Assembly (NCBI RefSeq): GCF_030219325.1
Contig: NZ_CP126625.1
Span: 124,001 to 188,000, forward strand
Direction: 5' to 3'
DNA from: Geothrix sp.
Lineage (GTDB): Bacteria; Acidobacteriota; Holophagae; Holophagales; Holophagaceae
Length of the DNA stretch: 64,000 nucleotides
Shown piece after piece: positions 16,898 through 54,909 of the stretch (position 1 is its first letter; every line of letters starts with the position of its first letter). The notes under the pieces were generated by a model, which worked only from the letters and a program-made list of their open reading frames with translations, did no database searches and had not been told where the DNA came from. A program made the translations under genes and the position numbers.

Positions 16898-17041
16898 TTT
16901 TCGATATTGAAATTGAATCCGCCTGGTAAATAAAATTCAAAATATGCCGATACCCATTAAACTGGGAGGCGTTCGTCATTGGCCTGGCCCCAGGGACCTG
17001 CCCGGCCCCGGAGTGTGTCTCGCGAATCATCAGGAGATCCC
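16898..17041 (+). promoter_or_regulatory. AT-rich leader of the PstS-like gene
   Basis: Bases 16892-16965 are strikingly AT-rich against the GC-rich background (TTAATTTTCGATATTGAAA at 16894 onward; GGTAAATAAAATTCAAAATA around 16925). TTGAAT (16913-16918) and ATTCAA (16935-16940) form a spaced inverted repeat that could be a regulator site. The AT-rich block is the likely promoter for the gene at 17042. The part after 16980 is GC-rich again and ends in a clear AGGAGA ribosome-binding site. Confidence 0.5.
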
Positions 17042-18025
17042 ATGCGCTCTTTCCTTTTCGCCTTGGTGGCCGGTTCCCTGCTGTTCAGCCAGGGGGTACC
17101 CCAATCCGCGCCGAAGGTGGATCCGGGCCTGGCACCCTATGTGCCCACCCAGGCCATCACGACCACGGTGGAGAGCATCGGTGCCGATTCCCTTACGGAT
17201 GTCTGGGAAGAGTGGAGGGCCGGGTTCAAGGCCCTGCAGCCCGGGGCCCAGTTCAAGGTCAACCACGGCCTCTCCACGGCGGCCGTAAAGGCCTTCATGG
17301 AGAATGCCTCTCCCATGATCCACATGGCCCGGGAACTCACCCTGGACGAGCACAAGGCCTTCGAGAAGAAGTTCGGCTACGCCCCCACCAAGGTGGTGGC
17401 CTGCTACGACGCGTTCATCGTCTTCGTCAACGCGGGCAATCCCATAAAGGACATCGGCATGGACCAGCTGGATGCGGCCTATTCCACCACCCGCAACGGC
17501 GGCTACAAGTCCGATTCCACCGTGGAAACCTGGGGCGACCTGGGCGTCCGGGGATCGGACTACGCCAGGCGGCCCATCCACGCCTACATGCGCGCCGAGG
17601 GCACGGCCTCGCGGACGACCATCCAGGATCTCGTGCTCTTGAAGGGCAAGTACAAGCCCACGGTCAAGGACGCGGTGGACTGGCCCAGCATCGCGGAAGC
17701 GGTGATGACGGACGCCTCGGGCCTCGGCATCGGCACCCTGTCCAACTGGCTGTCCCGCAACAAGACCCTGGCGGTGGCGCCCCTCCAGGTCAAGGAACCC
17801 GTGCCGCCCACCCAGGAGAATGTGGTGTCCGGCAAGTACCCCCTGTCCCGCACGTACTACTTCTACGTGAACCGCGCCCCGGGCGCCCAGCTCTCCCCGG
17901 CCGTGGCGGAGTTCCTGTCCTTCGTACTCTCGCGGCAGGGGCAGAACGCCGTGGCCCTGGCCTCCCTCTTCCCCTTGCCACCCGACATCGCGCAGTTGAA
18001 CCGGAAGCGCCTGCGCGCCAACTGA
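17042..18025 (+). CDS. orphan PstS-like phosphate/anion-binding protein
   Basis: A 327-residue exported periplasmic binding protein. A signal peptide (RSFLFALVAGSLLFSQG) precedes a type II binding fold with PstS-like landmarks: VESIGADSLTDVWEEW at the first binding loop, PMIHMARELTLDE, then DAFIVFVNAGNPIKDIGMDQL, which is the hinge strand and the 'F/V-NxxNP' turn of PstS proteins. Near the C-terminus it has YYFYVNRAPG and EFLSFVLSRQGQ, the usual PstS end. No pstC, pstA, pstB or phoU gene is nearby, so it may serve a distant transporter or act in sensing. The ATG at 17042 follows AGGAGA and the AT-rich leader; an intrinsic terminator follows. Confidence 0.8.
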   Translation: MRSFLFALVAGSLLFSQGVPQSAPKVDPGLAPYVPTQAITTTVESIGADSLTDVWEEWRAGFKALQPGAQFKVNHGLSTAAVKAFMENASPMIHMARELTLDEHKAFEKKFGYAPTKVVACYDAFIVFVNAGNPIKDIGMDQLDAAYSTTRNGGYKSDSTVETWGDLGVRGSDYARRPIHAYMRAEGTASRTTIQDLVLLKGKYKPTVKDAVDWPSIAEAVMTDASGLGIGTLSNWLSRNKTLAVAPLQVKEPVPPTQENVVSGKYPLSRTYYFYVNRAPGAQLSPAVAEFLSFVLSRQGQNAVALASLFPLPPDIAQLNRKRLRAN

Positions 18026-18045: not shown

Positions 18046-18075
18046 AAAGGGCGCGGGTTTCCCGCACCCTTTTTG
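18046..18075 (+). terminator. intrinsic terminator after the PstS-like gene
   Basis: AAGGGCGCGGG, a TTT loop and CCCGCACCCTTTTT make a stem with one mismatch followed by a T-run, about 20 bases after the stop at 18025. The rest of the 18026-18230 gap holds no gene; its last part is the leader hairpin of the next gene. Confidence 0.75.
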
Positions 18076-18182
18076 GGCCTGTCCCGGAAAAGATCCGGCC
18101 CCGTTCGACCCCCGATCCCTGTCATTCGAGCCCCCGGAACTGCCACCGGGGGAAGGGGCCCCACCAGGGAGGCCTGGATCGC

Positions 18183-18226
18183 ATCTCCTGGTGTGGACGG
18201 ATGATCCGCCCCAGCCACCAGGAGAT
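18183..18226 (+). promoter_or_regulatory. hairpin sequestering the ribosome-binding site of the Spy-like gene
   Basis: ATCTCCTGGTG (18183-18193) is the exact reverse complement of CACCAGGAGAT (18216-18226), which contains the Shine-Dalgarno AGGAGAT for the ATG at 18231. The 22-base loop holds a second small inverted repeat, CGGAT-G-ATCCG (18198-18208). In RNA, the hairpin would hide the ribosome-binding site, suggesting translational control. That effect is inferred, not shown. Confidence 0.55.
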
Positions 18227-18230
18227 CCCC

Positions 18231-18725
18231 ATGACCATCCACCCCCTCCGATTCGCCGCCCTCGCCTTGGCCCTGCTCGCCATCGGCACGGCGCTCTCCG
18301 CCCAGGGCTTCGGCCCCGGCCATGGCCGTGGACTGCGGGGCCTGAACCTCAGCGAAACCCAGCAGACCCAGGTGAAGGCCATCCACGACAAGCACCAGGC
18401 CGCCTTCAAGGCCAAGGGAGAGACGGCCCGGGCCGCCCACAAGGCTCTGTTCGAGGCCATGCAGAACGCGGCCATGGACGCGGCGGCGCTGAAGACCCTC
18501 CATGACAAGGCCTCCGCCGCCCAGTTCGACCTGCTGCTGGAGCATCGGGCCGCGCGGCAGGAGATCCTGCCCCTGCTCACGGCCGAGCAGAAGGCCAAGT
18601 TCGAGAAGACCCCCATGGGCATGGGCCCCCGGGGCGGACGCGGGCGTGGCCCAGGGTTCAGCGGCCCGAGGCATGGGGGACCGGCTCCCGAAGGCCCCGA
18701 TGCGCCTCCCGTGAAGCCGTCCTGA
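18231..18725 (+). CDS. Spy/CpxP-like periplasmic protein
   Basis: A 164-residue exported protein of the Spy/CpxP/LTXXQ group. These are small helical periplasmic chaperones or stress and metal sensors. A signal peptide (FAALALALLAIGTALSAQG) precedes a Gly/His-rich patch (GFGPGHGRGLRG). Two copies of the LTxxQ theme are present: LNLSETQQTQVKAI and PLLTAEQKAKFEK. A Gly/Arg/Pro/His-rich tail (GPRGGRGRGPGFSGPRHGG) ends the protein and could bind metal. The ATG at 18231 is set by AGGAGAT inside a hairpin. The gene is followed after 20 bases by a LytS-type kinase and its regulator, hinting at an envelope-sensing unit like CpxP with CpxAR (inference). Confidence 0.8.
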   Translation: MTIHPLRFAALALALLAIGTALSAQGFGPGHGRGLRGLNLSETQQTQVKAIHDKHQAAFKAKGETARAAHKALFEAMQNAAMDAAALKTLHDKASAAQFDLLLEHRAARQEILPLLTAEQKAKFEKTPMGMGPRGGRGRGPGFSGPRHGGPAPEGPDAPPVKPS

Positions 18726-18745: not shown

Positions 18746-19846
18746 ATGCGCGCTTCTGCGGTATTCCAGGCCACCTGGCAGCGGACGCGGCGCCCCCGGA
18801 CCTGGGGCGCCGCGCTCCTGTTCGGGCTGGTGTGGAATGGGACTCGGCTCCTGATGGGCCTGCCCGAACCCGGGCTCATCGAGGCGCTCACGCCCCCGCT
18901 CTGGGTGGCGCTCTTTCTCGTGCTGGCGCCACTGCCCTGGCAGTGGACCGGCGACGAGGCCCCCATGGCCAGCGCCCCGCGTGGCGCGGCCCAGGCCCTG
19001 CCCTGGATGGCGGCCCTCACCCTGGGCGTCCTGCTGCTCCTGGGCGCCGCGGGGAGCCCGCCGCCGGGCCGTGGCCCGGGTCCCGGTGCCATGGAGCGGG
19101 GCGCCTCCCGCCGAAACCTGGACCGCCCGGAAGCCCCGAGGCGGATGCACCTCCATCCGCGCCTCTGGATCCTGGGCGTGGCGCACCTCTCCTTCGGTCT
19201 GCTGCTGGGTTGGATCCTGGCGGATCGCGAGCGGGCCGAACACCAGGAGGCCGCGGCGCGCCGGGCCGCCGACGAGGCCCAGGCCCGCGTGCTCCAGGGC
19301 CAGATGAACCCGCACGTGCTGTTCAACGCCATCAGTGGATTGACCGAGCTGGTGCGGGAGGATCCCGTCGCGGCGGAGGCCGCCCTGGTGAACCTCTCCG
19401 ACCTGCTGCGGGCCCTGCTGGAGCACGGATCCCGCCTGCGGGCGCCCTTGCGCGACGAGCGCCGGCTGGTCGAGCTGCACCTGTCCCTGGAGCGCCTCCG
19501 TCTGGGCCACCGCCTGCGCGAAAGCTGGGACTGGCCCGAGGCCCTGGATTCGCTCGAGATCCCGCCCCTCATGATCCAGCCCCTGGTGGAGAACGCCCTG
19601 AAGCATGGCGTGGCCCTGGCCGTGGGCGGCGGCGAGCTGAAGGTGCAGGTGCGCCGCGAGGAGGATCAGCTCTTCATCTGCGTGGCGAACACGGGGCCGG
19701 CCCCGGCAGAGATGGAAGGGCGGGGCCTGGGACTGCGCAACCTGCGGGAACGCCTGGACCTGCTGGGGGCCCCCGCCGATGCGCTCCAGCTCCGGCGCGA
19801 CGGCGACTGGACCGTGGCCGAGCTGCGCCTGGTGGTGAAGGCATGA
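18746..19846 (+). CDS. LytS/YehU-type sensor histidine kinase
   Basis: A 366-residue inner-membrane kinase. Four hydrophobic segments lie in the first ~155 residues (WGAALLFGLVWNGTRLLMG, PLWVALFLVLAPLPW, WMAALTLGVLLLLGAA, LGVAHLSFGLLLGWILA). A short coiled coil leads to the His_kinase (PF06580-type) phospho-acceptor QMNPHVLFNAISGL. The ATPase half has PPLMIQPLVENALKHGV (N box) and GRGLGLRNLRERL (G box). This family pairs with LytTR regulators, and the next gene is one, overlapping by ATGA (19843-19846). It senses through membrane segments or the short periplasmic loops; the Gly/Pro-rich stretch (PPPGRGPGPG) between segments 3 and 4 is unusual. Confidence 0.9.
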   Translation: MRASAVFQATWQRTRRPRTWGAALLFGLVWNGTRLLMGLPEPGLIEALTPPLWVALFLVLAPLPWQWTGDEAPMASAPRGAAQALPWMAALTLGVLLLLGAAGSPPPGRGPGPGAMERGASRRNLDRPEAPRRMHLHPRLWILGVAHLSFGLLLGWILADRERAEHQEAAARRAADEAQARVLQGQMNPHVLFNAISGLTELVREDPVAAEAALVNLSDLLRALLEHGSRLRAPLRDERRLVELHLSLERLRLGHRLRESWDWPEALDSLEIPPLMIQPLVENALKHGVALAVGGGELKVQVRREEDQLFICVANTGPAPAEMEGRGLGLRNLRERLDLLGAPADALQLRRDGDWTVAELRLVVKA

Positions 19847-20565
19847 GCCTGCGCGTGCTCGTGGCGGAGGACGAGCCCTTCAACCGGAAGCGCCTCACGC
19901 GATTGCTGCGCGAAGCGGGCTGCGAGGTGGTGGCCGAGCTGGAGGACGGCCCCGCCGTGCTGGACTGGCTGGCCCGCGGCGAGGCCGTGGACGCCCTCTT
20001 CCTGGACATCCAGATGCCCGGGCTCACCGGCCTCGACGTGGTCGCGGACCTGCCGCGCCCCTTCCCGGTGGTCTTCGTCACGGCCTATGCCGAACATGCC
20101 GTGCGGGCCTTCGAGCAGGCCGTCACGGACTACCTGCTGAAGCCGGTGACGGCGGAGCGCCTGGCCACCACCCTGCAGCGCCTGCGCGCGCGCCTCGAGG
20201 CGGCCACCGGGCGCGAAGCCGCCGCACGACCAGCCGGGCCCTTCCGTTTCCCCGTGAAGGCGGGCGAGGGTGTGGTGCTGGTGGACCTGGCCAGGACCAC
20301 CCACTTCGTCTTCGAGGACGAGGCCGTGTGGGCCTTCGCCGGTGAGCGCCTGCGCACCACCTGGAAGACCCTGGCGGAAGCGGAAGCTGCCCTGGGCACC
20401 CGCGTGGTCCGCGGCCACCGGCACCTGCTTCTCCGCCCCGAGGCCATCGTGGGCGTGCGCGCGGGGGATTCAGGCCGCCTGCGCGTCAGGCTGGCGGGCG
20501 GGGCTGAGCTGGAAGTGAGCCGCGGAGCGGCACCAGGACTCAAGGCCAGGCTGGGGCTGGGCTGA
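19843..20565 (+). CDS. LytTR-family response regulator
   Basis: A 240-residue DNA-binding response regulator. The receiver occupies 1-120: acidic pair EDE in VLVAEDEPFNRKRL, phospho-acceptor Asp in ALFLDIQMPGLTGLDVV, Thr in VVFVTAYAEHAV, Lys in DYLLKPV. Residues ~140-240 form a LytTR domain (FPVKAGEGVVLVDLARTTHFVFEDEAVWA split here; then RVVRGHRHLLLRPEAIV), which binds direct repeats with beta-strand contacts. It starts inside the stop of the LytS-type kinase (ATGA), so the two are translationally coupled and form a cognate pair. The upstream Spy-like gene is the obvious candidate target. Confidence 0.92.
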   Translation: MSLRVLVAEDEPFNRKRLTRLLREAGCEVVAELEDGPAVLDWLARGEAVDALFLDIQMPGLTGLDVVADLPRPFPVVFVTAYAEHAVRAFEQAVTDYLLKPVTAERLATTLQRLRARLEAATGREAAARPAGPFRFPVKAGEGVVLVDLARTTHFVFEDEAVWAFAGERLRTTWKTLAEAEAALGTRVVRGHRHLLLRPEAIVGVRAGDSGRLRVRLAGGAELEVSRGAAPGLKARLGLG

Positions 20566-45581: not shown

Positions 45582-46057
45582 AGGCCGTCGTCGCCCTGGG
45601 CTCGAACCTCGGCGATCGCCGGGCGCACCTGGAGGCGGGGCTGGCCGCCTTGCGCACGTTGGGCGCGGTGCTGCCTTCGCCCCTGGTGATGGAGACGCCG
45701 GACGAGTCGGGTCGCGGTCCCGCCTACCTCAACACGGTGGCGATGCTCGTGGCTGATGAAACGGATCCGCGCCGGCTGCTGGAAGCCCTGTTGCGCCTCG
45801 AACTGACGGCGGGCCGGGATCGGAACGCCGGGAGGAACGCGCCCCGCACCCTGGACCTGGACCTGATCACCACGGACGGCCCGCCGGGGATCTGGACCTG
45901 GGACACGCCGGAGGACCTGCGCGCCCTGGGCCCCACGCTGAGCCTGGAACTCCCCCATCCCCGCGCCTTCAGCCGGCCCTTCGTGCTGGAGCCCTGGCGG
46001 GCCCTGTCCGATCCGGGAGAGTGTGGGGGCATCATCCCAAAAGAGAAAGAGCATTAA
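45578..46057 (+). CDS. folK: dihydropteridine diphosphokinase
   Basis: A 159-residue HPPK that pyrophosphorylates 6-hydroxymethyl-7,8-dihydropterin in folate synthesis. Family marks: VVALGSNLGDRRAHLEAGL; SGRGPAYLNTVAML, with the F/Y-LN motif; LLRLELTAGRDRNAGRNAPRTLDLDLI, containing the R-x-x-R-W-G-P-R-T-x-D-x-D motif with the metal-binding Asp pair; and LELPHPRAFSRPFVLEPW. It starts inside the stop of the membrane protein. Its TAA forms the first bases of a long palindromic element. folB and folP are not adjacent; the shared pterin/deazapurine precursor GTP may explain its place near queCF. Confidence 0.93.
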   Translation: MKAVVALGSNLGDRRAHLEAGLAALRTLGAVLPSPLVMETPDESGRGPAYLNTVAMLVADETDPRRLLEALLRLELTAGRDRNAGRNAPRTLDLDLITTDGPPGIWTWDTPEDLRALGPTLSLELPHPRAFSRPFVLEPWRALSDPGECGGIIPKEKEH

Positions 46058-46128
46058 CCGCAGATGTCGCAGATTCACGCAGATGAAAAGCACTCTTTAT
46101 CTGCGGCCATCTGCGACATCTGCGGTTA
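46055..46128. repeat. 74-base palindromic element of CGCAGAT units, after folK
   Basis: The 20-base arm at 46055-46074 (TAACCGCAGATGTCGCAGAT) is matched exactly by its reverse complement at 46109-46128. A second pairing, CGCAGAT (46078-46084) with ATCTGCG (46099-46105), and AAAG/CTTT extend it inward, so almost the whole element can fold. The arm is three 10-base units, CGCAGAT-NNN. It begins at the folK stop codon and lies between convergent genes, so it may act as a two-way terminator. A sibling occurs at 51013-51131. Confidence 0.9.
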
Positions 46129-54819: not shown

Positions 54820-54854
54820 CGGTGCCCCAGGTTCCAGGAAGTGTACCGGTCTGC

Positions 54855-54890
54855 ACAGAAAAGGGGGCCGCATGCGGCCCCCTTTTCTGT
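54855..54890 (-). terminator. intrinsic terminator after gdhA
   Basis: A perfect 17-base stem, ACAGAAAAGGGGGCCGC (54855-54871) with GCGGCCCCCTTTTCTGT (54874-54890), has a 2-base spacer (AT), giving a tight hairpin. On the minus strand the stem runs into CCCCTTTTCTGT. It separates gdhA (stop at 54910) from the PEP/pyruvate-binding gene (start 54819), which must then have its own promoter or rely on read-through. Confidence 0.88.
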
Positions 54891-54909
54891 GACTGCGAAA
54901 GGCTGGTGG

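Follow-up and report, generated by a model that had tools for sequence, protein, structure and literature searches.

The Spy-like gene that opens a spy-lytS-lytTR row in this Geothrix genome is preceded by a hairpin in which its Shine-Dalgarno (SD) sequence would be paired, and the left arm of this hairpin probably occupies the predicted -10 region of the operon, so that the operon's own transcript would lack it. We consider it quite possible, though short of probable, that the hairpin acts as a gate on transcript origin, with the ribosome binding site (RBS) masked only in read-through RNA. The LytTR regulator encoded by the row would activate the operon promoter, probably via three direct repeats (R1–R3) to which it is predicted to bind, and transcription would start just past the left arm, at about 18194–18197. 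The operon's own messages would carry no left arm, keep a small 5' stem-loop and have an exposed SD, while RNA reading through from the upstream gene would include the left arm, form the 11-bp stem and stay untranslated. The hairpin, a conserved block, the repeat geometry, the effect of the left arm on the masking energy and the neighbour pattern were computed, and from these the promoter, start site, LytTR binding and effect on translation are predicted.

The gene row and the hairpin at the SD

All features lie on the forward (+) strand, and coordinates refer to the window, the whole stretch of 64,000 nucleotides that was analysed, from a genome consisting of a single contig of 3.73 Mb. The first gene of the row (18231–18725) encodes a Spy/CpxP-like protein of the LTXXQ and Metal_resist families (PF07813, E 2e-9, and PF13801, E 2e-7). 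Directly downstream, on the same strand and as the preliminary description had it, follow a LytS-type histidine kinase (18746–19846; PF06580, E 6e-15) and then, as the third gene, a LytTR response regulator (19843–20565; PF00072, E 2e-22, and PF04397, E 6e-7). Upstream is a PBP-like gene (16979–18025) ending 156 nt 5' of the left arm, followed by a hairpin with a T-run resembling an intrinsic terminator at 18053–18075 (one found in the scan, mean of 0.1 in shuffles). A terminator is thus already present upstream of the operon in this genome, which counts against a gate on transcript origin.

The arms ATCTCCTGGTG (18183–18193) and CACCAGGAGAT (18216–18226) are exact reverse complements of 11 bp with 22 nt between them. 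The right arm includes AGGAGAT (18220–18226), with the SD AGGAGA at 18220–18225, and 4 nt separate the arm from the ATG at 18231. The second small repeat earlier noticed within the loop is the inverted repeat CGGA-TGA-TCCG at 18198–18208, part of an inner stem-loop, or imperfect DNA palindrome, GGACGG-N5-CCGCCC (18195–18211), that is recognized by folding and conservation. The loop also holds an in-frame ATG (18201–18203), ten codons 5' of the one at 18231, which is missing in many congeners and therefore probably has no role as a start.

The 49-nt element folds with -24.7 kcal/mol, compared to a mean of -13.5 (sd 2.5) for 200 dinucleotide shuffles, none of which is as good (z -4.42); over a 111-nt segment the signal is diluted (z -0.67, with 48 of 200 shuffles equally good). 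Inverted repeats of at least 11 nt are not rare in themselves, with 32 pairs within 60 nt of each other across the 64 kb, many of those listed being overlapping palindromes. The control set consisted of 124 genes with GGAG followed by ATG and at least 200 codons, taken from the window and from 20 stretches, each of 20 kb; with 164 aa, the Spy-like gene falls under this size limit and so outside the set. In the control genes an exact arm against the SD region reaches 9 nt at most, in two of them, indicating that the rarity lies in an 11-nt arm on an SD and not in 11-nt inverted repeats as such. Elsewhere in the window there is a perfect 19-nt inverted repeat with zero spacer (54854–54891), and a 36-nt inverted repeat with a 2-nt loop and 86% complementarity (46055–46128).

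Opening the SD at this locus costs 12.9 kcal/mol at 37 C when the left arm is part of the RNA, more than in any of the 124 control genes (median 5.0, maximum 11.5), energies here and below being those of naked RNA at default settings, with ribosome kinetics ignored. The masking proposed earlier for this hairpin would thus be strong, provided that the left arm is transcribed. The cost stays at 11.8–13.5 kcal/mol for RNA whose 5' end lies at the first base of the left arm or up to 60 nt further upstream, is 10.3 for an RNA starting 3 nt into the arm, and is 3.7–4.8 from 6 nt in.

The conserved block and the predicted promoter

The Spy-like protein was found in 68 of the 77 genomes of the family, and a scan of genome contigs for named relatives gave five loci, three of them in Holophagaceae MAGs. 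A first alignment held 28 leaders; without the outlier L030 and with G027 added, it gives the 28 main-type loci, all from the genus of the window, three other rows (L002, L028 and L031) having been removed as paralogues or because the leader is absent from the contig. L030, from the congener G035, has a perfect inner hairpin with its left arm replaced by CTAGGAGA. Its block is shifted, and it was set apart in the SD-duplex profile and in the SD-context ranking, column-invariance, covariation and opening-cost tests, and kept in the first alignment, the folds for SD unpaired probability, the swap test and the count of upstream neighbours. The distant set of 14 leaders, five from the same genus but other species and nine from other genera of the family, comes from 20 regions hand-chosen from the list of Spy-like hits, the leaders with the hexamer being picked by eye; L093, L107, L108, L109 and L110 were excluded because a comparable hexamer was not recognized, and L111 as a duplicate of L015.

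The left arm lies in a 31-nt block (18181–18211) in which 21 of 31 columns are invariant among the 28 main-type loci, compared to none of the 15 columns in the spacer just upstream and one of the eight just before the SD. On a tree built from downstream coding DNA (27 loci), parsimony gives no change at 21 of the 31 block positions and 5–12 changes at each spacer position. The eight positions before GGAG show 5–11 changes each with one exception, a C two bases 5' of GGAG that has none, and is the partner of an invariant left-arm G, which counts in favour of pairing. Exact matches to the block were found in at least 19 genomes among the matches listed, one in each and every one at the spy locus. 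As a motif at other genes the block was rejected, since matches elsewhere with one or two mismatches are no commoner than those of a reversed control pattern; a near match in G017 falls in long open frames on both strands. The nearly invariant 31 nt are a well-defined experimental target in Holophagaceae.

In the 28 main-type loci the nearly frozen block, left arm included, stands at a fixed distance from LytTR-like direct repeats with a register of 21 bp, that is a 9-bp repeat and a 12-bp gap. These are R1 (CCCCGTTCG, 18099–18107) and R2 (TGTCATTCG, 18120–18128), both conserved in congeners, and R3 (18141–18149), which is degenerate here (TGCCACCGG) and TGCCATTCG-like in many congeners. Allowing one mismatch, the repeat pair occurs in 11 of 60 genomes, of which nine belong to the genus and have the match at the spy locus and two are more distant; with up to two mismatches the two-repeat pattern matches the spy leader in several congeners. 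In this genome the two-repeat pattern has no match with two mismatches allowed and R3 is degenerate, which counts against the gate.

According to PMC6193735, operons of LytTR regulators have 9-bp repeats with gaps mostly of 12 bp and strongly favour a distance of 10 bp from the repeats to the -35; several of the examples then have 17 bp between -35 and -10. By this geometry the -35 position is predicted as CCCACC (18160–18165; mostly TCCACC in congeners), 10 bp past R3, and the -10 as ATCTCC (18183–18188) or TCTCCT (18184–18189), 17 bp past the predicted -35. The predicted -35 is a slow-evolving island before a fast-evolving spacer, with 15 fast-evolving positions in the 17 bp between TCCACC and ATCTCN. 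TCTC of the predicted -10, and the T two bases on, are invariant in all 28 loci. The arrangement repeats, 10 bp, TCCACC, 17 bp, ATCTCN is fixed in nearly all main-type leaders and speaks for the gate, while against it stand a promoter scan that found none at this locus and the poor match of ATCTCC or TCTCCT to a σ70 hexamer. With poor hexamers, an empty scan and a degenerate R3, the promoter is proposed from geometry and conservation. If the spacing rule of PMC6193735 is valid here, transcription would start at about 18194–18197, just past the left arm.

Proposed RNA mask, promoter DNA and read-through

Somewhat doubtful, in our estimate, is the account in which left arm and 31-nt block serve as promoter and initiation DNA only, with the longer match to the SD due partly to chance and shared ancestry and no masking function in the RNA. 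TCTCC in a -10 region will complement any GGAG, and the left arm is invariant whatever its partner: T3, T8 and G12 of alignment A2 never change, yet among 25 distinct rows they lack a pairing partner in 13, 9 and 8, respectively, so that some constraint beyond pairing must hold the arm while its partner drifts. Covariation, whose absence the preliminary description named as a refutation of its reading, does not rise above shuffles. On each of five measures, 96–237 of 500 shuffles do as well as the real alignment, with paired cells, double changes, pair types and the covariation score lying in the shuffle range; as proof of the stem covariation was discarded, and its lack counts against the gate as well. 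Pairing amounts to 77.5%, compared to 44–53% in slid versions, an excess that conservation of SD and left arm alone can yield. A left-arm G is changed to A in four leaders, with the matching C to T in L010 and L025 and without it in L015 and L027.

The complementarity between the left arm and its own SD has been compared with that of other SD contexts. Set among 124 genome SD contexts, 13 of the 28 right arms are in the best 5% at pairing with the left arm of their own locus, which argues against promoter DNA only, while in eight loci 31–92% of the contexts equal or surpass the own SD in pairing with the left arm, as would be expected from it. A swap test, with kinship uncorrected, likewise falls on both sides, with P 0.006 when pooled, and 0.06 for the main type and 0.18 for the distant set taken separately. 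In the main type the complementarity to the SD has its peak at the left arm (-13.7, background -5.9, sd 1.3). The value for the left arm in the distant operons is -7.7, which does not stand out from the background (-6.0, sd 1.1), with a lower one of -8.8 elsewhere, and these operons largely retain the geometry and not the mask, in line with promoter DNA only.

When the first 8 nt are removed, the opening cost falls by at least 3 kcal/mol at 16 of the 28 main-type loci, at none of the 14 distant ones and in 3 of the 124 control genes (Fisher 2e-4 for main type versus distant set, kinship uncorrected), which supports the gate and counts against promoter DNA only, as does the C two bases before GGAG that is unchanged on the tree. 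The fall is absent in the other 12 main-type loci, which counts against the gate, and also in L030, with a cost of 6.4 with and 6.8 without the 8 nt. The masking fold recurs among congeners, with a mean SD unpaired probability of 0.05 or less at 18 of 28 loci (a set with L030 and without G027) compared to 17% of the 124 control genes, and five of the 13 distant leaders reach this level too. At first this suggested a fold shared by every clade, a view overturned by the duplex profile and the opening-cost test of the distant operons.

A same-strand gene with a recognizable C-terminus precedes the left arm at 23 of the 29 main-type loci that include L030, with a PBP-like C-terminus in nine and the ending EDIGETEE(G/E) in 14 others. 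Apart from the present genome these genes end 81–109 nt before the left arm, leaving scant room for a terminator before R1 and making read-through a likely problem for the mask-bearing clade, where same-strand genes abut. The top-scoring upstream frame is divergent in all 13 distant loci checked, judged by codon-position GC and not by homology, L103 lying at a contig end without an upstream neighbour. This contrast is in effect one comparison between clades. Within the main type, mask and neighbour show no clear correlation by eye, L004, L015 and L022 having an abutting same-strand gene and a fall below 3 kcal/mol, and L010 a stem without a clear abutting gene, and the neighbour pattern is thus suggestive only.

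An RNA switch in the main transcript, with the left arm transcribed and the stem opened by a protein such as CsrA, a small RNA, a ligand or temperature, appears unlikely. The fold is stable and partly conserved, the invariant ACGGA of the block (18197–18201) resembles the ANGGA core of CsrA sites, and CsrA is encoded by the genome. The promoter geometry would keep the left arm out of the main transcript, however, and the lack of covariation above shuffles applies here as well. A known cis-regulatory RNA family was dropped, since the Rfam search gave seven matches at E up to 10 and none at the gathering score, the one with the lowest E reaching 16.9 bits of the 49 needed. Opening by heat, as first suggested for this stem, is implausible, and an RNA thermometer was rejected, since by computation 8.8 kcal/mol are still required at 60 C and the SD helix fails to open in the growth temperature range.

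The palindrome at 18195–18211 is of fixed length in the 28 loci, with CCGCCC or CCGTCC as the right half-site, and could be a candidate regulator operator at the predicted start site. That a second, dimeric regulator binds GGACGG-N5-CCGYCC and the outer arms match only incidentally is nevertheless very unlikely, for although both half-sites are near-invariant, and A-C oppositions make a poor RNA stem yet suit a GGRCGG half-site, no candidate regulator was identified and several distant operons fold a stem-loop of other sequence at the same place.

Extended from this locus to the clade, the gate on transcript origin becomes a stress operon in which the 5' arm of an RBS-masking hairpin harbours the LytTR-activated promoter, the Spy-like chaperone being made solely from deliberately initiated mRNA, an arrangement that would be found in the clade with same-strand neighbours and be absent from relatives with divergent ones. 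We regard this wider proposal as possible, with distinct reservations. The locus is also a warning that an RBS-masking hairpin drawn from sequence alone may have its left arm 5' of the start site.

Comparison with known systems

Papers joining Geothrix and LytTR, or LTXXQ and LytTR, were not found in a search that left most subscription journals outside. In RNA thermometers such as ROSE and fourU the SD is paired within a hairpin; the perfect GC-rich stem of 11 bp seen here is far too stable for that class. IS10/Tn10 masks its RBS in read-through RNA and not in its own transcript, as proposed here, but that system is a mobile element. Operons with AgrA/ComE-type LytTR regulators have the same layout of repeats, -35 and -10 upstream of the regulator's own operon.

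The closest promoter architecture is that of the LytTR regulatory systems (LRS), which according to PMC6193735 share with this locus direct repeats of 9 bp separated by 12 bp, a distance of 10 bp to the -35 and often one of 17 bp to the -10. Also as in LytTR autoregulated operons described there, the repeats lie upstream of the regulator's own operon, with the LytTR regulator (PF04397) in the same row, and their 21-bp register and the 10 bp to the predicted -35 agree with the repeats of about 9 bp, gaps of 11–13 bp and distance of about 10 bp expected of such promoters, R3 being degenerate here. The locus differs from LRS in having three repeats, one of them degenerate, a weak -10, a different repeat sequence and a Spy-like gene, and with a kinase partner of LytS type (PF06580) in place of an inhibitory membrane protein, the operon is not classed as an LRS.

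The masking itself is most similar to gene e (lysozyme) of phage T4, where, according to PMC3014915, an RBS-masking structure has late promoters in the region of its 5' strand and masking affects the longer early transcripts only. Here the operon's own promoter is predicted in the DNA of the left arm, which would confine the mask to longer transcripts initiated upstream, and the mask in these is stable, by computation. The differences are that the present locus is a chromosomal two-component row and not a phage gene, that its start and translation are predicted only, and that 12 of the 28 main-type loci are without the left-arm effect. If the gate on transcript origin is correct, a chromosomal envelope-stress operon can filter its messages according to where they were initiated, a design that PMC3014915 describes for a phage gene. 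A frozen left arm with a drifting partner points to a promoter and the excess complementarity to a mask, and both fit the design of T4 gene e.
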